Source: an uncultured Treponema sp. (GTDB taxonomy: Bacteria > Spirochaetota > Spirochaetia > Treponematales > Treponemataceae). Taken from it: a stretch of 64,000 nucleotides of DNA. A program made the position numbers and the translations under genes. Below the pieces are notes generated by a model, which saw only the letters and a program-made list of their open reading frames with translations, had not been told where the DNA came from and searched no databases. Of this stretch, positions 53,846 through 63,536 are shown one piece after another. The stretch is from assembly GCA_949300145.1 (NCBI GenBank), contig CASGDA010000005.1:62001-126000 (forward strand). The letters are read 5' to 3'. Positions within the stretch are counted from its first letter, which is position 1. Each line of letters begins with the position of its first letter.

Positions 53846-54616
53846 ATGAAAAAACTGGTTTCCGTTGCGGTTTTTGTTGCCGCGGTTTTCACATTTTTTT
53901 CATGCGCGAAGAAGGAAGTCGACATAAAAAGTGCCGAAGACCTTGCAGGCAAGAAGATAGGCGTCCAGGCCGGAACCACAGGAGAAAGCTGGGTTCAGGA
54001 AAACGTGAAGGATGTCAAGCTTTCGTCATTTAAAAGCGGAATTGACGCCGCCCTTGACCTGAAAAACGGAGCCATCGACGCCGTTGTTCTGGACGAACTT
54101 CCTGCAAGGGAGATAGTGGCCCGCAACGACGACCTCCAGATTCTCACAGGCTCTTTCGCAAGGGAGGAATACGCCATCGCCGTCAAAAAAGGCAACACGG
54201 AGCTTCTGGAGAAAATCAACAGCGCCATCCAAAAAATGATGGACGGGGATGACTACACAAAACTCCGCCAGTCCTTCATGCCGGCGGACGGGGAAATCAC
54301 CATTCCGGTCATCGATGTCCCCGAATCGGATAAAACAATCAGGCTCGGAACAAACGCCGCTTTTCCTCCCTTTGAATACGTCGGCGGAAACACGATTGTA
54401 GGATTCGACATAAGCATGGGACAGCTCATAGCGATAGAATGCGGCGCGAACCTCGAGGTCGTGGACATGGCCTTTGACAGCCTTATTCCCGCCCTCGCAT
54501 CGAATGCCATCGACTTCATCGCGGCGGGTATGTCCGTAAACGAAGAACGCAAAAAGAACGTGGATTTCTCCATCCCGTATTTTGAATCAGAGCAAGTAAT
54601 CATAATCCGGAAATAA
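53846..54616 (+). CDS. Amino-acid ABC transporter substrate-binding lipoprotein
   Basis: A 256-residue family-3 solute-binding protein. The signal peptide ends in a lipobox-like TFFSC (Cys20), so it is membrane-anchored. The fold is complete: KKIGVQAGTTGESWV, AALDLKNGAIDAVVLDELPA and IRLGTNAAFPPFEYVGGN...IVGFDISMGQLIA. Interestingly, the two lobes appear in swapped order: the second-lobe half comes first and the usual N-terminal half last, a circularly permuted arrangement seen in some family members. It captures a polar amino acid. AGGAG lies seven bases upstream. Confidence 0.9.
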   Translation: MKKLVSVAVFVAAVFTFFSCAKKEVDIKSAEDLAGKKIGVQAGTTGESWVQENVKDVKLSSFKSGIDAALDLKNGAIDAVVLDELPAREIVARNDDLQILTGSFAREEYAIAVKKGNTELLEKINSAIQKMMDGDDYTKLRQSFMPADGEITIPVIDVPESDKTIRLGTNAAFPPFEYVGGNTIVGFDISMGQLIAIECGANLEVVDMAFDSLIPALASNAIDFIAAGMSVNEERKKNVDFSIPYFESEQVIIIRK

Positions 54617-54619
54617 ACA

Positions 54620-55288
54620 GTGTTCCAGGCTTTTTATGACACGATGATATACGGCAGCCGGTGGCTCCTGATCCTTCAGGGGCTGTGGGTTACCGTATGC
54701 ATCGCTTTTTTCGCGATTATAATAGGAACCGCGCTGGGTGCCGGCGCCGCGCTCTGTAAAATATCCGGCAACCGCTGGTTGAAGGCGGTCGCGGAATTTT
54801 ACACGACGGTTATCAGGGGGATTCCTCTGGCGACACAGCTCATGATTTTCTATTTTGTCGTATTCGCACCCCTCGGACTTAACAATTTCCTTGTTGCGGT
54901 AATCGCCTACGGCATCAACTCCGGAGCCTACTGCACGGAGATTTTCCGCGCGGGCATCCAGGGGGTGGACAAGGGGCAGATGGAGGCTGGCCGGTCGCTG
55001 GGCCTTTCAAAGAAGCAGACCCTGTCCAAGATTATCCTGCCCCAGGCAGTCAAGATGATTCTTCCTACATATACAAGCGAATTCATTGTCCTGATAAAGG
55101 AAACCTCCGTTGCCAGCTTTATCGCTGTAATGGATTTGACAAAGGCCGGGGACATGGTGCGCAACGCGACCTACAACGCATGGATTCCGTTGATAACATG
55201 CGCGGTGATTTACCTGTGCCTCACCCTGGGCCTGACGAAAATTTTCGCTATTCTTGAAAAAAGGCTGGCCAGAAGTGATAGAAGTTAA
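54620..55288 (+). CDS. Amino-acid ABC transporter permease
   Basis: A 222-residue HisM/GlnP-type permease with about five membrane helices. It carries the signature [19 protein letters not shown] near residue 60 and the EAA loop [20 protein letters not shown] (with [23 protein letters not shown] in part). The start is a GTG at 54620, three bases after the binding protein; only a weak GGAA is visible. It overlaps the ATPase gene by 14 bases. Confidence 0.92.
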
Positions 55289-55997
55289 AGGGTTAAAGAA
55301 AAGATTCGGCAATCTTCAGGTTTTGAACGGAATCACGGAGACAATAAACAAAGGGGAAAAGGTTGTCATCGTGGGTCCCTCCGGTTCGGGAAAATCCACT
55401 TTTCTCAGGTGCCTCAACTGGCTGGAAATCCCAGACTCCGGGGAAATCTTCTTTGAGGGGACTCTTTTGAATGATCCTGAAACGGACATCGACATGATAC
55501 GCAGGAAAATGGGGATGGTGTTCCAGCATTTCAACCTGTTCCCGCATCTGACCATCCTGCAGAACATAACCCTCGCCCCCGTGACACTCAAACTCCAGAC
55601 AAAGGAAGAAGCCGAAAGCAGGGCGATGTCGCTTCTTGCCAGAATCGGGCTTGAAGACAAGGCGGGCGAATACCCTTCCCGCATTTCAGGCGGACAAAAG
55701 CAGAGGATAGCCATTGTACGCTCACTCGCCATGAATCCAGACGTGATGCTCTTTGACGAGCCCACATCCGCCCTTGACCCGGAAATGGTCGGCGAGGTTC
55801 TCCAGCTTATGAAAGAGCTCGCCGACGACGGAATGACAATGGTGGTCGTAACCCATGAAATGGGCTTCGCCCGTGAAGTCGCAACCCGCGTGCTGTTTAT
55901 GGACGGCGGCGTCATACAGGAGCAGAATACACCCGGTGAATTTTTCGGGGCACCGAAAAACGAACGCCTCAAGGATTTCCTCTCAAAAGTCCTTTGA
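55275..55997 (+). CDS. Amino-acid ABC transporter ATP-binding protein
   Basis: A 240-residue GlnQ/HisP-type ATPase: Walker [17 protein letters not shown]-loop [18 protein letters not shown], signature [17 protein letters not shown] and Walker [21 protein letters not shown] (in part), then the switch His in [13 protein letters not shown]. It energises uptake with the permease encoded upstream. The frame is open from TTG 55254, but the GTG at 55275 ([12 protein letters not shown]) is the expected start, inside the end of the permease gene. Confidence 0.95.
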
Positions 55998-58061: not shown

Positions 58062-58445
58062 ATGACTGAAGGCTTTAAGACAATAATGATTGTCGATGAC
58101 TCCGCGATAGAACGAAGGATTCTGAAAAACATCCTGAATAAAAATTATAAAATTATAGAAGCCGGGAACGGTTATATGGCCCTGGACAACATCCTTGAAA
58201 AAAAAATGCTCATAAATTTAATACTGCTGGATATTTCAATGCCGGTTTTAAAAGGCTTTGACGTGATAGATATACTTGAGAAAAACAATGTTACGATTCC
58301 GGTGATACTTATCACCGCGGAAGCCACCTTCGAGAACGTCATCAACGCCAGAAAAAGAAACGTAAAGGACTTTATAGGAAAACCCTTTGACGCTGAAACA
58401 GTACAACAGCGGGTGGCCTCCGTATTGGAAAAAGAAGAACAGTAA
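58062..58445 (+). CDS. Stand-alone CheY-like response regulator
   Basis: A 127-residue receiver domain without an output domain. The active site is complete: Asp12-Asp13 (MIVDDSAIERR), phospho-acceptor Asp57 (ILLDISMP), Thr85 and Lys107 (IGKPF). It probably acts by protein contact, as CheY does, or as a phosphorelay step. GGAGG is about eight bases ahead of the ATG. The partner kinase is not obvious; it converges on the sugar-sensing cassette but is on the opposite strand. Confidence 0.93.
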   Translation: MTEGFKTIMIVDDSAIERRILKNILNKNYKIIEAGNGYMALDNILEKKMLINLILLDISMPVLKGFDVIDILEKNNVTIPVILITAEATFENVINARKRNVKDFIGKPFDAETVQQRVASVLEKEEQ

Positions 58446-58460
58446 CAACTTACACAGGCT

Positions 58461-59141
58461 TTATCCGGCCGTCGGATATTCATTGCACAGAAGCCTGTAC
58501 GGAGGACAGTCTTCCTCTATTTCCGGAAATCTGCCGACCTTTTCGTAAAAACGGTTGTCAGTGTTATCGTCGTTGCACTGGGATACTTCCCCGATAAGAA
58601 CATCCCCGCTTCCATTCTCCACATTGAATTCGTGATACATATGCGGCCAGATTGTTATGCTTTCACCGGGAGTCAGGCGCACCTTCGTCCCGGCGGGAAC
58701 TACATATGAACGTCCGTCAGAATTCACAGTGACGTCAGTTGATGCAAGCCCGCCGTTTCCGTCATCATTGTAAACAGTAATCAACAGTGTCCCGCCGCCA
58801 CGGTTTATAATGTCCTCACTTTTATACCAGTGAAAATGCATCGGGGAATACTGCCCGTCCTTCAGCATCAGAAGTTTTTCCGCATACACCTTTTTATATT
58901 TCGGGTTGTGCTGGTTGCCGTTGCGCAGTGTGATAAGAGCGAAGCCGCACTTTTCAAAATTACCGAGACCAAAGTCAGTGATATCCCATCCGAGCATATT
59001 GTCCCGTATTTCATCATATTCGCCGCCTTTGTTCTTCCATTCTTCAGGTGTCCAGTTACAGAACGGAGGAAGGATGTAACCGTGCTTAGCGGCAAGGTTC
59101 TCCATGTACCTGATGATTCCGTTGATTTCCGACCTCTTCAT
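58461..59141 (-). CDS. D-lyxose ketol-isomerase (cupin)
   Basis: A 226-residue cupin sugar isomerase of the D-lyxose/D-mannose isomerase family. It has the metal site QYSPMHFHWYKSEDIINRGG (in part), the second half VRLTPGESITIWPHMYHEF, and the family ending FPEIEEDCPPYRLLCNEYP (in part). It converts D-lyxose to D-xylulose, and often D-mannose to D-fructose. The ATG at 59141 with GGAGG six bases ahead is used; the longer frame to 59213 would overlap the solute-binding gene. It ends the sensor cassette. Confidence 0.9.
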   Translation of the reverse strand: MKRSEINGIIRYMENLAAKHGYILPPFCNWTPEEWKNKGGEYDEIRDNMLGWDITDFGLGNFEKCGFALITLRNGNQHNPKYKKVYAEKLLMLKDGQYSPMHFHWYKSEDIINRGGGTLLITVYNDDGNGGLASTDVTVNSDGRSYVVPAGTKVRLTPGESITIWPHMYHEFNVENGSGDVLIGEVSQCNDDNTDNRFYEKVGRFPEIEEDCPPYRLLCNEYPTAG

Positions 59142-59160
59142 AAAAAACCTCCATGAAAAT

Positions 59161-60459
59161 TTATTTAATATAATTAGATACACGTTGCTGAACAACACGC
59201 AGTGTATCCTCAATGTTCCTGTTATCCTGATAAATTTTGCTTATTTCGCTGTCCGCAATCTGGATTGCGTCGGCATAAAGAGGAAATTTATATGCCGTAT
59301 ATCCGTTTTCAACAGCCCTTCCTATCTGCTTGTTATCAATAAGCCTGCTGTTATCATTGATGACGCTTTCAAGTATTTTCCTTGTGGTATTGGACTCGGT
59401 GATATCTTTCAACGGAGAGATGCCGACGGAATCAACAAACAGACACTGCTGTATCTTTGAATCATATGTCAAGGTTTTTAAAAAATCCCATGCAAGCTGT
59501 TTGTTCCTGCTGTTCCGGCTCATACCTATAATCAAACTGTTTACAACGGAACTGTTTTTACCGCCTGGCGTTTTCGGCATATCCACCGCATCCCACTGAA
59601 ATTCAGAGTACTTTTTTATCTGGTACGGATAAGATTTATAAGTACGGTATTCGGCTATGCTTATAGGCATAAAAGCCACATTTCCACTGTCAAAATCATC
59701 CTGTGTCACCTTATATCCTTGATTAAGATTTTCAAGCGACTGGATGAATTTTACAGCGGCGGCTACTTCCGGCGTATTGAAAAAACACTCTTTTCCGTCA
59801 AGGGAAAATAAAGATATTTTATCCGAGTAAACAGCTTCAAGCCATCCGAAACCGCATATACCGAACTGGTCAAGTATTCCGTCACCGTCATTATCTTTTG
59901 TAATCTGCCTGCACATGTCATACAAGTCCTGCCATGAATAATTATCCAAAGGCACAGAAATATTCTCTTTTTCCAATAATGTTTTGTTCACACACATGAC
60001 ATCAGGAACAGTTTCAAAAGGAAGAGCATATTGTTTGCCGTTACTTCTACCTCCGTTTAAACAAAGCTTATAATATCTGTCAATATCAAATGAAGCGTCT
60101 CCTGAAATATAAATATCCAACGGTTCAAGAATACCAAGAGACACAAGTTTAGTGAAATCGGATTCCAGGATTACAAACACATCGGGAACTGTTCCGTCAA
60201 GAACTTGCTGACTGAGCCATTCTGAATACTGGTCTTTACGGATACCGCTATTATACGTAATTTTCACACCAGGATTTTCCAATTCAAATTTATCTATGGC
60301 CCGGTCAAATAGTATCGCGCTATCCTTGACAGCCACATCCCAATTACTTCCTGCAAAAACTCCAAAACGCAGAACTTTTTCTTTTTCGGTATCTGAGCAG
60401 GAGAAAAAAATAAAGAAAAAAATACTAAAAAAGCATAGTATTATTTTATGTATCATCAT
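59161..60459 (-). CDS. Extracellular sugar-binding lipoprotein (family 1 solute-binding protein)
   Basis: A 432-residue exported protein: a very Phe/Ile-rich signal peptide ending in FFSCSD (lipobox Cys), then a family-1 solute-binding fold (LRFGVFAGSNWDVAV, VPDVFVILESDFTKLVSLGILEPLD in part, LPFETVPDVMCVNKTLLEKENI in part, MPKTPGGKNSSVVNSLIIGM). Such proteins bind oligosaccharides for ABC importers, but no permease or ATPase is adjacent. It overlaps the response regulator by 14 bases. It may deliver sugar elsewhere or present ligand to the kinase (inference). The start could also be the ATG one codon later. Confidence 0.9.
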   Translation of the reverse strand: MMIHKIILCFFSIFFFIFFSCSDTEKEKVLRFGVFAGSNWDVAVKDSAILFDRAIDKFELENPGVKITYNSGIRKDQYSEWLSQQVLDGTVPDVFVILESDFTKLVSLGILEPLDIYISGDASFDIDRYYKLCLNGGRSNGKQYALPFETVPDVMCVNKTLLEKENISVPLDNYSWQDLYDMCRQITKDNDGDGILDQFGICGFGWLEAVYSDKISLFSLDGKECFFNTPEVAAAVKFIQSLENLNQGYKVTQDDFDSGNVAFMPISIAEYRTYKSYPYQIKKYSEFQWDAVDMPKTPGGKNSSVVNSLIIGMSRNSRNKQLAWDFLKTLTYDSKIQQCLFVDSVGISPLKDITESNTTRKILESVINDNSRLIDNKQIGRAVENGYTAYKFPLYADAIQIADSEISKIYQDNRNIEDTLRVVQQRVSNYIK

Positions 60460-61126
60460 CTTCTTCTTCAAAAAAATTATTCTTTGACTGTATGGCCCAT
60501 ATAGCGATTTGAGTCCTGTCCCTCAATCCCAGTTTTTCAAAAATAGAAGAAATATAATTTCTGACGGTTCCCATTGATAAATTCACAATATCAGCTATCT
60601 CTTTATTTGAGTATCCGTATGAAAGTGCGTTTATAACCTTTCTTTCCGCTGAATTAAGCTGCCTGACTTGTTCAACCGGAACAGAAATAATATCCCTTTG
60701 TTTTGCCATTTGCGAAAAAAAAGAAAGCATCTTTTTCGTGATATCTGGATTAATCATCGCGGAACCTGAATATACCGTAATTATCGCTTCTTTCAAACTT
60801 TCCATGGAAATTCCCTTCAAAAGATAACCGCTGGCACCGTATTTCAAAGCGTCATATACATATTCGTCATCATCAAACATGGTAAGTATAATTATTTTTA
60901 TGTCAGGATATTTTTCCTTTACGATTTTTGTACACTGCACCCCATCCATCTTCGGCATCCTGATATCCATGAGGATAATGTCAGGTTTTGAATGTGGAAT
61001 TGACCGTATTACGGACTCCCCGTCCTTGACCACACCAACAACTTCAATATCAGCATGGCTTGAAAGTATAATCTGAAGGCTCTGGCGCATAAGTTCCTGA
61101 TCATCCGCAATTAAAACCTTTATCAT
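60446..61126 (-). CDS. NarL/LuxR-type response regulator
   Basis: A 226-residue two-component regulator. The receiver domain has Asp8-Asp9, phospho-acceptor Asp54 (ILMDIRMPKMDG) and KGISMESL; the C-terminal LuxR helix-turn-helix is AERKVINALSYGYSNKEIAD...MGTVRNYISSIFEKLGL (in parts). It should be phosphorylated by the kinase whose stop codon overlaps its start by four bases, and then control genes for sugar use, plausibly its own operon. The linker ends in an acidic tail (EEEDDD). Confidence 0.95.
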   Translation of the reverse strand: MIKVLIADDQELMRQSLQIILSSHADIEVVGVVKDGESVIRSIPHSKPDIILMDIRMPKMDGVQCTKIVKEKYPDIKIIILTMFDDDEYVYDALKYGASGYLLKGISMESLKEAIITVYSGSAMINPDITKKMLSFFSQMAKQRDIISVPVEQVRQLNSAERKVINALSYGYSNKEIADIVNLSMGTVRNYISSIFEKLGLRDRTQIAIWAIQSKNNFFEEEDDDT

Positions 61127-63048
61127 TGTTCCGCCTCCAGATTTTTTCTGAGAGGGATTACAGCTTCTATCGAAAATCCGTTTTCTGTCCAGACTTTTAA
61201 TTCACCGTGCAGCATTTCTATTCTGCTTTGCATATGTGATAAGCCGAATCCAAAATGTATATCAGGACATCCAATTCCATTATCATGAATAGAAATACGT
61301 ATTGCATTTTCAGATTTTTGAATTTTTAAATCAATTGTATCTGCATGGCTGTGCTTTATCGCATTCGTAATACTTTCCTGTATTATACGGTAGACGGCCA
61401 GCTCTTCATCTTCATCAAGATCAAAATTCCTAACTGTTGACGAGAACATTACGTGTATTCCGGTTACTGATTCCGTGTTATTCACAAGCCGGCGTATGGC
61501 GGACTCAAGGGACAACCGTTCGAGCAAATCCGGCCTCAGATGATTAACAGACCTGCGTATTTCCAGGACACCTTCCCTTGCCATATCGGTAACAAGTTTA
61601 AGCTGCTGGTTGAATTTATCAGAATTACTCTGCATAAGGGTATTACAGGCATCCAATCCCGCAACAATACCTGCAAGAGTATGACCAACTGTATCGTGAA
61701 TTTCACGGGCCAATCTGTTACGCTCCTGTATTTCAATTGTCTTAACCTGTTCAAACATATATTTCTCTATTTCGTGGTTTGCCGTCTTAAGATTTGCGTG
61801 TGCCTGTGTCAGCTGAAGATACAAATCATTTATTTTGTGGAGCGAGTCCTGTTTGGATATGAGCGTTGTCGTACAAAAAACTATAAAACAGACTATAGTT
61901 CCTATCTGAAAAAAATCATACAACCCAAGGAGATATATTTGATTAACTTTGTCGTCATAAAAATTTATATAATCATGTATACTATATAAATCAAGAACTA
62001 TTGAAAGCAAACCGAAATCAGAACACAGATATACAAACATCCCGGCGCAAATAACAATGATGGATACAATTTTCCTGCGGTTATTCAGAGTATAAAGCAA
62101 AATATTCGCTAAGACCCATAAAACTATCATATCGGTGTCAACTAAAATCTGCTTAGGAACATCCTTTCCATCCAGATAACGGTATGCGGTTTCCACCGTC
62201 AGTTTACCGATTTTGACAGGATATTGGGCGGCGGTTCCTGTTATAAAACCTTTTGAAATCATTGACTTTGCATCCGGAGAACCATCAATACCGTAAATTA
62301 ATATTTTATCATCCAGTCCTCTCTGCTGCAACGCGGCAAGACTGCCAAGTGCTGTTGGATCATTATTTGCAAAAACAACATCAAAGTCCATTCCTTCCTC
62401 AAGAAAATTCCCGAACTTTTCCGTTGCCACTTCTATTTCGGATACATCCGTAATCACTTTCACAATATTAAAATTACGGTGTTTACGGACAGTAGAAATA
62501 AAACCGTCAAACCGCTGTCTTGTGGATGAAATTCGCGTGTCATAGAGAACGACAATGTCAGCTCCGCCAGACATACGATGAACCATATCTTCGGCACACT
62601 GCCGTCCGGCCATATAATTATCAGACTGGATAACAGAAATAATATTGGAAGAATCAGAGACATCCGTATCAACAATAAAAACAGCGACACCAGCCTCAAG
62701 ACAGGCATCAATAGCCGGCAGCACTTTTATCCGATCCACGGGATTCAATAAAAGAACGGATATCCCCTCATCAATCATGTCAAGAATCTGAAGATTCTGT
62801 CTTTCCTGATTCTGGGCAGGATCCCTTGATATAAAAACATCCCCGTAATCATTCACAAGACATTTCATTGTCTCATCCAGAATCTGGAAATAGGGGTTGT
62901 TCATTGTCATATATGTGGCCCCGAATTTTACCGGAGCGTTCTTTTTCAAATAGCCGGAGAAAAATACAAAAAGAAGTAATAAAACAGCGGAAGCTGTAAG
63001 AATGGAAAAACAGATTCTTAAAACAACAAAAACTATATTTTTCTTCAT
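61123..63048 (-). CDS. Histidine kinase with built-in periplasmic sugar-binding domain
   Basis: A hybrid sensor of about 641 residues. After one membrane helix comes a complete ribose-binding-protein-like domain (about 45-310: NPYFQILDETMKCLV, LLLNPVDRIKVLPAIDACLEAGV in part, VFANNDPTALGSLAALQQRG, IYGIDGSPDAKSMISKGFITG in part), then about four membrane helices (to ~400), a coiled coil, a HisKA_3 box (NRLAREIHDTVGHTLAGIV, phospho-His near residue 450) and a HATPase domain (NAIKHSHA, DNGIGCP, GFGLSHMQSRIEMLHGEL). The ligand is probably a pentose or hexose. The ATG at 63048 is chosen because a 39-bp inverted repeat spans the alternative GTG at 63072. Confidence 0.93.
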   Translation of the reverse strand: MKKNIVFVVLRICFSILTASAVLLLLFVFFSGYLKKNAPVKFGATYMTMNNPYFQILDETMKCLVNDYGDVFISRDPAQNQERQNLQILDMIDEGISVLLLNPVDRIKVLPAIDACLEAGVAVFIVDTDVSDSSNIISVIQSDNYMAGRQCAEDMVHRMSGGADIVVLYDTRISSTRQRFDGFISTVRKHRNFNIVKVITDVSEIEVATEKFGNFLEEGMDFDVVFANNDPTALGSLAALQQRGLDDKILIYGIDGSPDAKSMISKGFITGTAAQYPVKIGKLTVETAYRYLDGKDVPKQILVDTDMIVLWVLANILLYTLNNRRKIVSIIVICAGMFVYLCSDFGLLSIVLDLYSIHDYINFYDDKVNQIYLLGLYDFFQIGTIVCFIVFCTTTLISKQDSLHKINDLYLQLTQAHANLKTANHEIEKYMFEQVKTIEIQERNRLAREIHDTVGHTLAGIVAGLDACNTLMQSNSDKFNQQLKLVTDMAREGVLEIRRSVNHLRPDLLERLSLESAIRRLVNNTESVTGIHVMFSSTVRNFDLDEDEELAVYRIIQESITNAIKHSHADTIDLKIQKSENAIRISIHDNGIGCPDIHFGFGLSHMQSRIEMLHGELKVWTENGFSIEAVIPLRKNLEAEQ

Positions 63049-63060
63049 ATAAATTTTCTT

Positions 63061-63099
63061 GCTGACCTGCACATGATAATTACATGTATACAGGTCAGC
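63061..63099. repeat. 39-bp nested inverted repeat ahead of the sensor-kinase gene
   Basis: GCTGACCTG and CAGGTCAGC form perfect 9-bp outer arms; inside, ACATG and CATGT form a second pair. It ends 13 bases upstream of the kinase ATG at 63048. It could be an operator for the cognate regulator or an RNA hairpin limiting translation. Confidence 0.68.
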
Positions 63100-63183
63100 C
63101 GTAAACAGACTTATGTCCGCTGCTTTTTGATATTCCTTTCTGACGACACAAATCGGGGATTCCTTCGGACTGACGACAGGTCC

Positions 63184-63403
63184 CGTACCAGGCTCGCCGG
63201 TAAAATCGCCGTGTATGCAGCTACATTCAAAACATGAATCCGTATGTGGCTGGAATCGCGGTCATCTCGCTGGTGCTTATTTTTTTCTGCCGAGAATGAG
63301 CAGGAAAATTCCCGGTTCACTGGTGGTGATTATCGCTGTCACCATTGCAGCGAAACTGCTGGATTTTCCGACAGAAAATAGAGTGGCAGACACCGGGCGG
63401 TAA
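63184..63403 (+). pseudogene. Remnant of a SulP-family anion transporter
   Basis: Three overlapping reading frames together spell a continuous SulP-like membrane segment: RTRLAGKIAVYAATFK, then MNPYVAGIAVISLVLIFF, then LPRMSRKIPGSLVVIIAV...LLDFPTENRVADTG. The frames break at AAAACATG near 63230 and at a run of seven T near 63281-63287. Intact SulP proteins (sulfate/bicarbonate transporters) are over 500 residues, so only a decayed fragment remains. Confidence 0.65.
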
Positions 63404-63494
63404 AAACCATGCATACGATTTCTGCCCGGGAGAATCCTGTGAACGAACGGAATTGTTACAGGAGGTTGCTCATCATCTACCTACTATAGTAATT

Positions 63495-63536
63495 TTTTAT
63501 GTAATTTGTATATACAGGTATACAAATTACATAAAA
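63495..63536. promoter_or_regulatory. 42-bp perfect palindrome, probable operator of the DUF4143 ATPase gene
   Basis: Arms of 18 bp (63495-63512 and 63519-63536) match perfectly around a six-base centre TACAGG. The inner part is TTTGTATA...TATACAAA, the same arms as the recA palindrome. It overlaps the -35 position of the promoter with -10 at 63542-63547. Confidence 0.75.

Follow-up and report, generated by a model that had tools for sequence, protein, structure and literature searches.

In EHEC O157, lyxose/mannose induce the LmuKAIZYX locus (OI167) and are utilized through it (PMC10128022). Like the full treponeme operon described below, the Lmv/Lmu locus combines an isomerase, a CUT2 importer, a PfkB-like kinase and a class-II aldolase with a two-component system in charge. 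However, its kinase LmvK is a hybrid of the HAMP type, its regulator LmvR belongs to the OmpR type, and dedicated sensor substrate-binding proteins (SBPs), present in the treponeme module, are absent. In Ruminiclostridium cellulolyticum, the CuaDSR system has a dedicated lipoprotein SBP, separate from the one used in transport, which cooperates with a kinase and a regulator beside an ABC importer (PMC10384115). The XylFII-LytS complex discussed in the same paper, i.e. XylFII-LytS (YesN) of Clostridium beijerinckii, employs a sensor of the RbsB superfamily which acts on a kinase controlling a CUT2 importer. Finally, the fusion of an SBP with a kinase is known in Bacteroides, where the hybrid two-component system BT1754 carries a periplasmic sugar-binding-protein domain and a histidine kinase in one chain (PMC3404733).

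Here we describe a locus of an uncultured Treponema sp. that resembles each of these systems in part. It is located in a stretch of 64,000 nucleotides (the window), which belongs to contig C5 of a draft genome (G000; 2.24 Mb, 94.65% complete). Compared with the Lmu locus, the isomerase is present and the importer, PfkB kinase and aldolase are lost. The dedicated SBP found beside kinase and regulator is a separate gene in relatives and a domain of the kinase in the window. An importer accompanies the SBP-dependent two-component system in about 20 relatives, whereas the window retains only a scar of a permease gene. CuaDSR differs in having a single sensor SBP, a kinase with a 267-residue outside domain and cellobiose as ligand, and its components are unfused; XylFII-LytS differs by its LytS-class kinase, its unfused sensor and the lack of a second SBP. 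As for BT1754, it carries its own regulator domain in the chain, recognizes fructose and has neither a family-1 SBP nor a polytopic HisKA_3 kinase. Receiver and DNA-binding domains are absent from the kinase chain of the window, the regulator being encoded by a separate gene.

We consider it likely that a complete CUT2-type operon for sugar uptake, under a binding-protein-dependent two-component system, was reduced to the present locus by deletion of the importer and fusion of sensor and kinase, with sensing probably retained. The gene content, the fusion, the scar and the conservation of module and pocket were read from the sequence; the ligand, the direction of signalling, the regulator targets and the activity of the fusion protein we infer.

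Gene content of the locus

All four genes are found at the expected place, run in one direction and contain no internal stops:

61123-63048, minus strand: sensor histidine kinase, 641 aa, ATG at 63048 (Peripla_BP_4, HisKA_3 and HATPase_c)
60446-61126, minus strand: response regulator with REC domain (Asp54) and LuxR/GerE helix-turn-helix (Response_reg and GerE)
59161-60459, minus strand: family-1 extracellular binding lipoprotein (SBP1), 432 aa, ATG at 60459 (SBP_bac_1, 6.6e-26; FFSC lipobox)
58461-59141, minus strand: D-lyxose/D-mannose isomerase, 226 aa, ATG at 59141 (Lyx_isomer PF07385, 2e-100)

Kinase and regulator genes overlap by 4 nt, regulator and SBP1 genes by 14 nt, and a gap of 19 nt separates the SBP1 stop from the isomerase ATG. 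From this spacing, a single operon and co-transcription of the four genes are very likely, as a previous sequence-only reading of this DNA had proposed. The same reading had assigned a ribose-like binding domain to the kinase, and this is borne out by the Pfam match to Peripla_BP_4 (E = 2.4e-47), which lies within one open frame with HisKA_3. The isomerase matches PF07385 with 335 bits, its score against the equivalog NCBIfam model (264.6) being below the cut-off of 350. A stand-alone CheY-like receiver gene (58062-58445) is convergent with the isomerase gene and is also kept in the only congener with this locus (G005, see below).

Apart from the scar of the permease gene, no permease or ATPase genes were detected in 58461-63500, and so the family-1 lipoprotein is indeed encoded in a cassette without either component. 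The nearest ABC genes (53846-55997) are transcribed in the opposite direction and lie past a uvrD-like gene. They represent the sole candidate for an importer near the cassette in the window, and were rejected because they resemble a polar-amino-acid-type system.

The ancestral module and its importer

Relatives of the isomerase, kinase, sensor and SBP1 were searched for in 195 genomes of the family. The isomerase was present in only seven of them, and relatives of the kinase, sensor domain and SBP1 were clustered in about a dozen. An SBP1 alignment scan over 84,980 species genomes yielded 25 close matches, partly from the same genomes as the family search, in treponemes, Pleomorphochaeta and Lachnospiraceae/Clostridia. 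Gene order in the family genomes was constant: RbsB-like sensor SBP (about 325 aa), histidine kinase (about 440 aa), response regulator, SBP1, CUT2 SBP, RbsA-type ATPase and RbsC-type permease. The operons of T. lecithinolyticum, L013/L014 and L121/L125 additionally contain genes for a class-II aldolase, a PfkB kinase and lyxose isomerase; the isomerase is an accessory component that others of these operons lack. In two treponeme operons (L013 and L014), the isomerase gene is directly followed by one for a chemoreceptor (dCache, HAMP and MCP signal domains; L013:11285-13453), hinting at chemotaxis coupled to the same sugar.

While the importer is located downstream in treponemes, it is encoded upstream in most Clostridia (CUT2 SBP, RbsA, RbsC, sensor SBP, histidine kinase, response regulator, SBP1). 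In two clostridial loci, strong terminator-like hairpins with a T run were observed between the permease and sensor SBP genes (L112:6819-6895 and L114:6821-6897), suggesting a break or attenuation that would separate the importer from the sensor genes. Genes for RbsA and RbsC were adjacent to the module in 20 loci, and the other contigs end too early for this to be judged; the exception is L085 (8.2 kb contig), where genes for PfkB and an MFS transporter occupy the importer's place. Identity of the window regulator reaches 94% in G005 and 57-65% in spirochaetes and Clostridia.

These comparisons only partly agree with the expectation that the four-gene order would recur in spirochaetes and Firmicutes. 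The order sensor SBP, kinase, regulator and SBP1 is indeed kept in both groups, but sensor and kinase are separate, an importer is present and the isomerase occurs only in some operons. Moreover, a nearby importer, which the sequence-only reading had named as evidence against itself, is found in relatives, where CUT2 SBP, ATPase and permease belong to the operon. Together with the permease scar beside the window kinase, this contradicts the idea of a self-contained cassette designed to work without an importer, and illustrates how easily a pruned operon can be misread as a designed cassette. The locus can serve as a useful natural experiment; it belongs, in pruned form, to a known class and does not represent a new type of system.

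Probable deletion of the importer

Two features upstream of the kinase gene are shared with G005, in which the permease gene is intact:

63111..63137, minus strand: scar of the CUT2 permease gene, last codons RNIKKQRT before the stop (RNIKKQRA before the stop in the intact permease of G005)
63061..63099, minus strand: hairpin GCTGACCTG...CAGGTCAGC between permease scar and kinase, at the same position in G005

Local alignment of scar and hairpin with G005 gave a score of 75 (shuffled maximum 34), and the scar part alone scored 40 against a shuffled maximum of 32. Within the hairpin, a compensatory change from A-T to G-C distinguishes the two genomes. Synteny with G005 covers nine neighbouring genes on the isomerase side, and similarity stops beyond the scar. 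From this, it can be proposed as part of the likely explanation given above that the importer was deleted in the window lineage and that only the 3' terminus of its permease gene survived.

The DNA past the scar (63138-63400) contains degenerate, broken frames reading like fragments of a membrane protein. The segment resembles a frameshifted membrane protein, but as it gave no significant Pfam match it is treated as unassigned. Further on, a perfect 18-nt inverted repeat (TTTTATGTAATTTGTATA / TATACAAATTACATAAAA, 6-nt spacer; 63495-63536) lies immediately upstream of an AAA_14/DUF4143 ATPase gene and is possibly an operator or an element end.

The window genome encodes many CUT2 and CUT1 permeases, none of them orthologous, and an importer elsewhere in the genome was rejected on these grounds: the best match to the operon's CUT2 permease in the 94.65% complete draft is 40% identical, compared with 71% between G005 and T. 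lecithinolyticum. An importer could lie in the part missing from the draft. The PfkB kinase and class-II aldolase of the full operon are missing from the window operon as well, and the sole class-II aldolase of the genome is distant (about 32% identical to that of the operon).

Since the four-gene set is intact and constrained, and an importer is lacking from the operon and an orthologous one from the genome, the cassette might have been retained by selection as an environmental sugar sensor, its regulator controlling genes elsewhere. We regard this as unlikely: there are no known target genes, the importer is the obvious target in relatives, and G005 appears degraded, not re-purposed.

Fusion of the sensor and the kinase

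In all relatives examined (about 20 loci), sensor SBP and kinase are encoded by separate neighbouring genes, and 21 of 21 sensor SBPs checked end as a gene of their own, nearly all of them with GWQ before the stop. The fusion is peculiar to the window genome and no general feature of the system. Its parts are as follows:

61123..63048, minus strand: membrane anchor at the N-terminus; RbsB-like sugar-binding domain (up to approximately residue 308); three more membrane helices; HisKA_3 and HATPase_c
62115..62140, minus strand: fusion junction ...VDTDMI / VLWVLANIL... at codon 308/309, from DNA alignment with G005

At the junction, 402 bp of G005 are missing from the window, namely the sensor-SBP gene from ...VDTDMI to its end and approximately the first 115 codons of the kinase gene. 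The fused kinase would have arisen by a deletion of about 400 bp which joined two ancestral genes in frame, showing how a single deletion can create a chimeric sensor kinase. According to hydropathy, intact kinases consist of TM1, a short outer loop, TM2 and TM3, followed by further helices. In the fusion, the anchored sensor domain stands in place of TM1-3 and the parity of membrane crossings is preserved. Four membrane segments were predicted (12-30, 301-319, 327-345 and 373-391), a topology with the binding domain on the outer and the kinase on the inner side of the membrane. In the predicted structure, the binding domain (pLDDT mostly 80-98) and the catalytic core are confident, and the junction is poor (pLDDT below 50 at 310-325).

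Along with the conserved GWQ tail of the sensor, the first three helices and the small outside loop of the kinase were lost through the deletion, which likely represent the docking surface. Nevertheless, catalytic motifs are retained, and as pocket, topology and signs of constraint are all kept too, the fused kinase may still be functional. The window offers a natural test of the receptor mechanism, in which one binding protein is tethered to the kinase and the outer loop of the kinase is discarded. If the fused protein still signals, it would reveal which contacts matter.

The second binding protein

SBP1 is a conserved partner of the kinase/regulator pair in relatives, and many of its orthologues are uncleaved, membrane-anchored forms. 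Its predicted model is moderate (pLDDT 75, TM-scores near 0.4) and gives the fold class only, which is that of oligosaccharide-binding proteins. The sequence-only reading had left two roles for the lipoprotein, co-sensor or soluble component of a distant importer. Given the occurrence of SBP1 in the same conserved order across phyla with no CUT1 permease in those operons, it probably acts as a co-sensor. The other role, i.e. that of a substrate-binding subunit of a distant family-1 (CUT1) ABC importer, would be compatible with the fold class and with several BPD_transp_1 permease pairs in the window genome. It is very improbable in view of the conserved four-gene order and the membrane-anchored orthologues; furthermore, the other SBP_bac_1 match found in the genome (C7:46222) adjoins permease genes of its own (C7:48215-49656).

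In the open-access literature searched, no description of two unrelated SBPs serving one kinase was found, and the two-SBP sensor module of relatives, next to a mannose/lyxose-type importer, is apparently undescribed. As a tentative and rather doubtful extension, the conserved module could be a four-component receptor in which RbsB-like and family-1 SBPs jointly gate one kinase (e.g. in response to a monosaccharide and its parent oligosaccharide). In the window, one of them would then have become hard-wired to the kinase, and the module would persist as a sensor without an importer.

Probable ligand and proposed mode of action

The pocket of the window sensor was compared with a list of positions which we take to be the ribose contacts of RbsB. 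Residues N13, F16, D89, S103, R141, N190, D215 and Q235 occur in this sensor and likewise in the CUT2 SBPs which these operons encode. The two pockets are nearly identical and share their departures (M at 9 and T at 90), and so sensor and importer probably bind the same sugar. Among known structures, the sensor domain matches PDB 2x7x, presumably BT1754, and its sequence relatives include PDB 5xsj/5xss/5xsd, which we take to represent xylose sensing by XylFII-LytS of C. beijerinckii.

The full treponeme operon corresponds gene for gene to LmuKAIZYX of EHEC (35-46% identity for that of T. lecithinolyticum), with identities of 41-47% for the isomerase, 46% for the ATPase, 44% for the permease, 43% for the aldolase, 37% for PfkB and 35% for the SBP. 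The window isomerase is 47% identical to LmuI. Based on this match and on the use of lyxose/mannose by the Lmu locus, D-mannose and/or D-lyxose would be the most likely ligand, in line with what had been suggested from the isomerase gene.

In the ancestral system, a membrane-anchored RbsB-like sensor and SBP1 would signal the presence of an aldose, D-mannose and/or D-lyxose being most likely, to the polytopic HisKA_3 kinase. The kinase would phosphorylate the LuxR-type regulator, which would activate the importer genes as well as those for isomerase, PfkB kinase and class-II aldolase in operons that contain them. Loss of the importer by deletion in the window lineage would have left the permease 3' end, and the deletion of about 400 bp would have fused sensor and kinase. 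Most likely, the fused protein has remained able to sense the sugar and to activate its own operon with the isomerase gene, and the sugar would enter through another transporter.

Constraint and origin of the locus

The genus sample comprised three genomes, one of which lacked the locus, leaving G005 as the only congener carrying it. In G005, a single deletion (L009:4001-4840) joins residue ~130 of the CUT2 SBP to residue ~344 of RbsA out of frame. Its kinase gene is interrupted by a frameshift close to a run of A (L009:7124-7232), explicable as a genuine break, as a variable tract or by faulty assembly. As G005 originates from a metagenome bin, both of its breaks could be assembly errors. Intact copies of the locus are present in other genomes, and both genus members bearing it are damaged, each in a different way.

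The window locus might be viewed as a decaying pseudo-operon, in which the fusion is recent and non-functional and the other genes are merely not yet lost. The loss of importer, PfkB kinase and aldolase from the operon, the broken importer and frameshifted kinase of the only congener with the locus, and the removal of conserved parts of both ancestral genes by the fusion would all agree with such decay. However, none of the four reading frames is interrupted, the fusion joins its two parts in frame and with the right membrane parity, the residues of pocket and catalytic motifs are retained, and window-only changes at conserved sites are not in excess. We therefore hold decay to be possible but less than probable.

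Window-only changes were counted at outgroup-invariant sites and amounted to 4 of 105 in the sensor, 2 of 112 in the kinase, 1 of 136 in the regulator, 0 of 165 in SBP1 and 2 of 127 in the isomerase, the total being lower than that of G005. These counts speak against a decay of long standing in the window copy, but leave the fusion itself undated. Between the window and G005, dN/dS was about 0.12 for the sensor, 0.05 for the kinase and 0.02 for the regulator, rough values given that, for several genes, synonymous divergence approaches or exceeds saturation. Low dN/dS mostly reflects the time before the fusion.

As for the origin of the reduced operon, GC content of the kinase, regulator and SBP1 genes is 37-39%, compared with 47% in the window and 48% in the isomerase gene. 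In a tree of regulator and SBP1, the window and G005 group with Clostridia and not with other treponemes (clade support 0.999, exact position unresolved), and the gene order of G005 is of the clostridial type. The isomerase is placed near treponemal isomerases. Taken together, GC content, tree and G005 gene order would fit the acquisition of a clostridial importer/sensor operon beside a treponemal isomerase gene.
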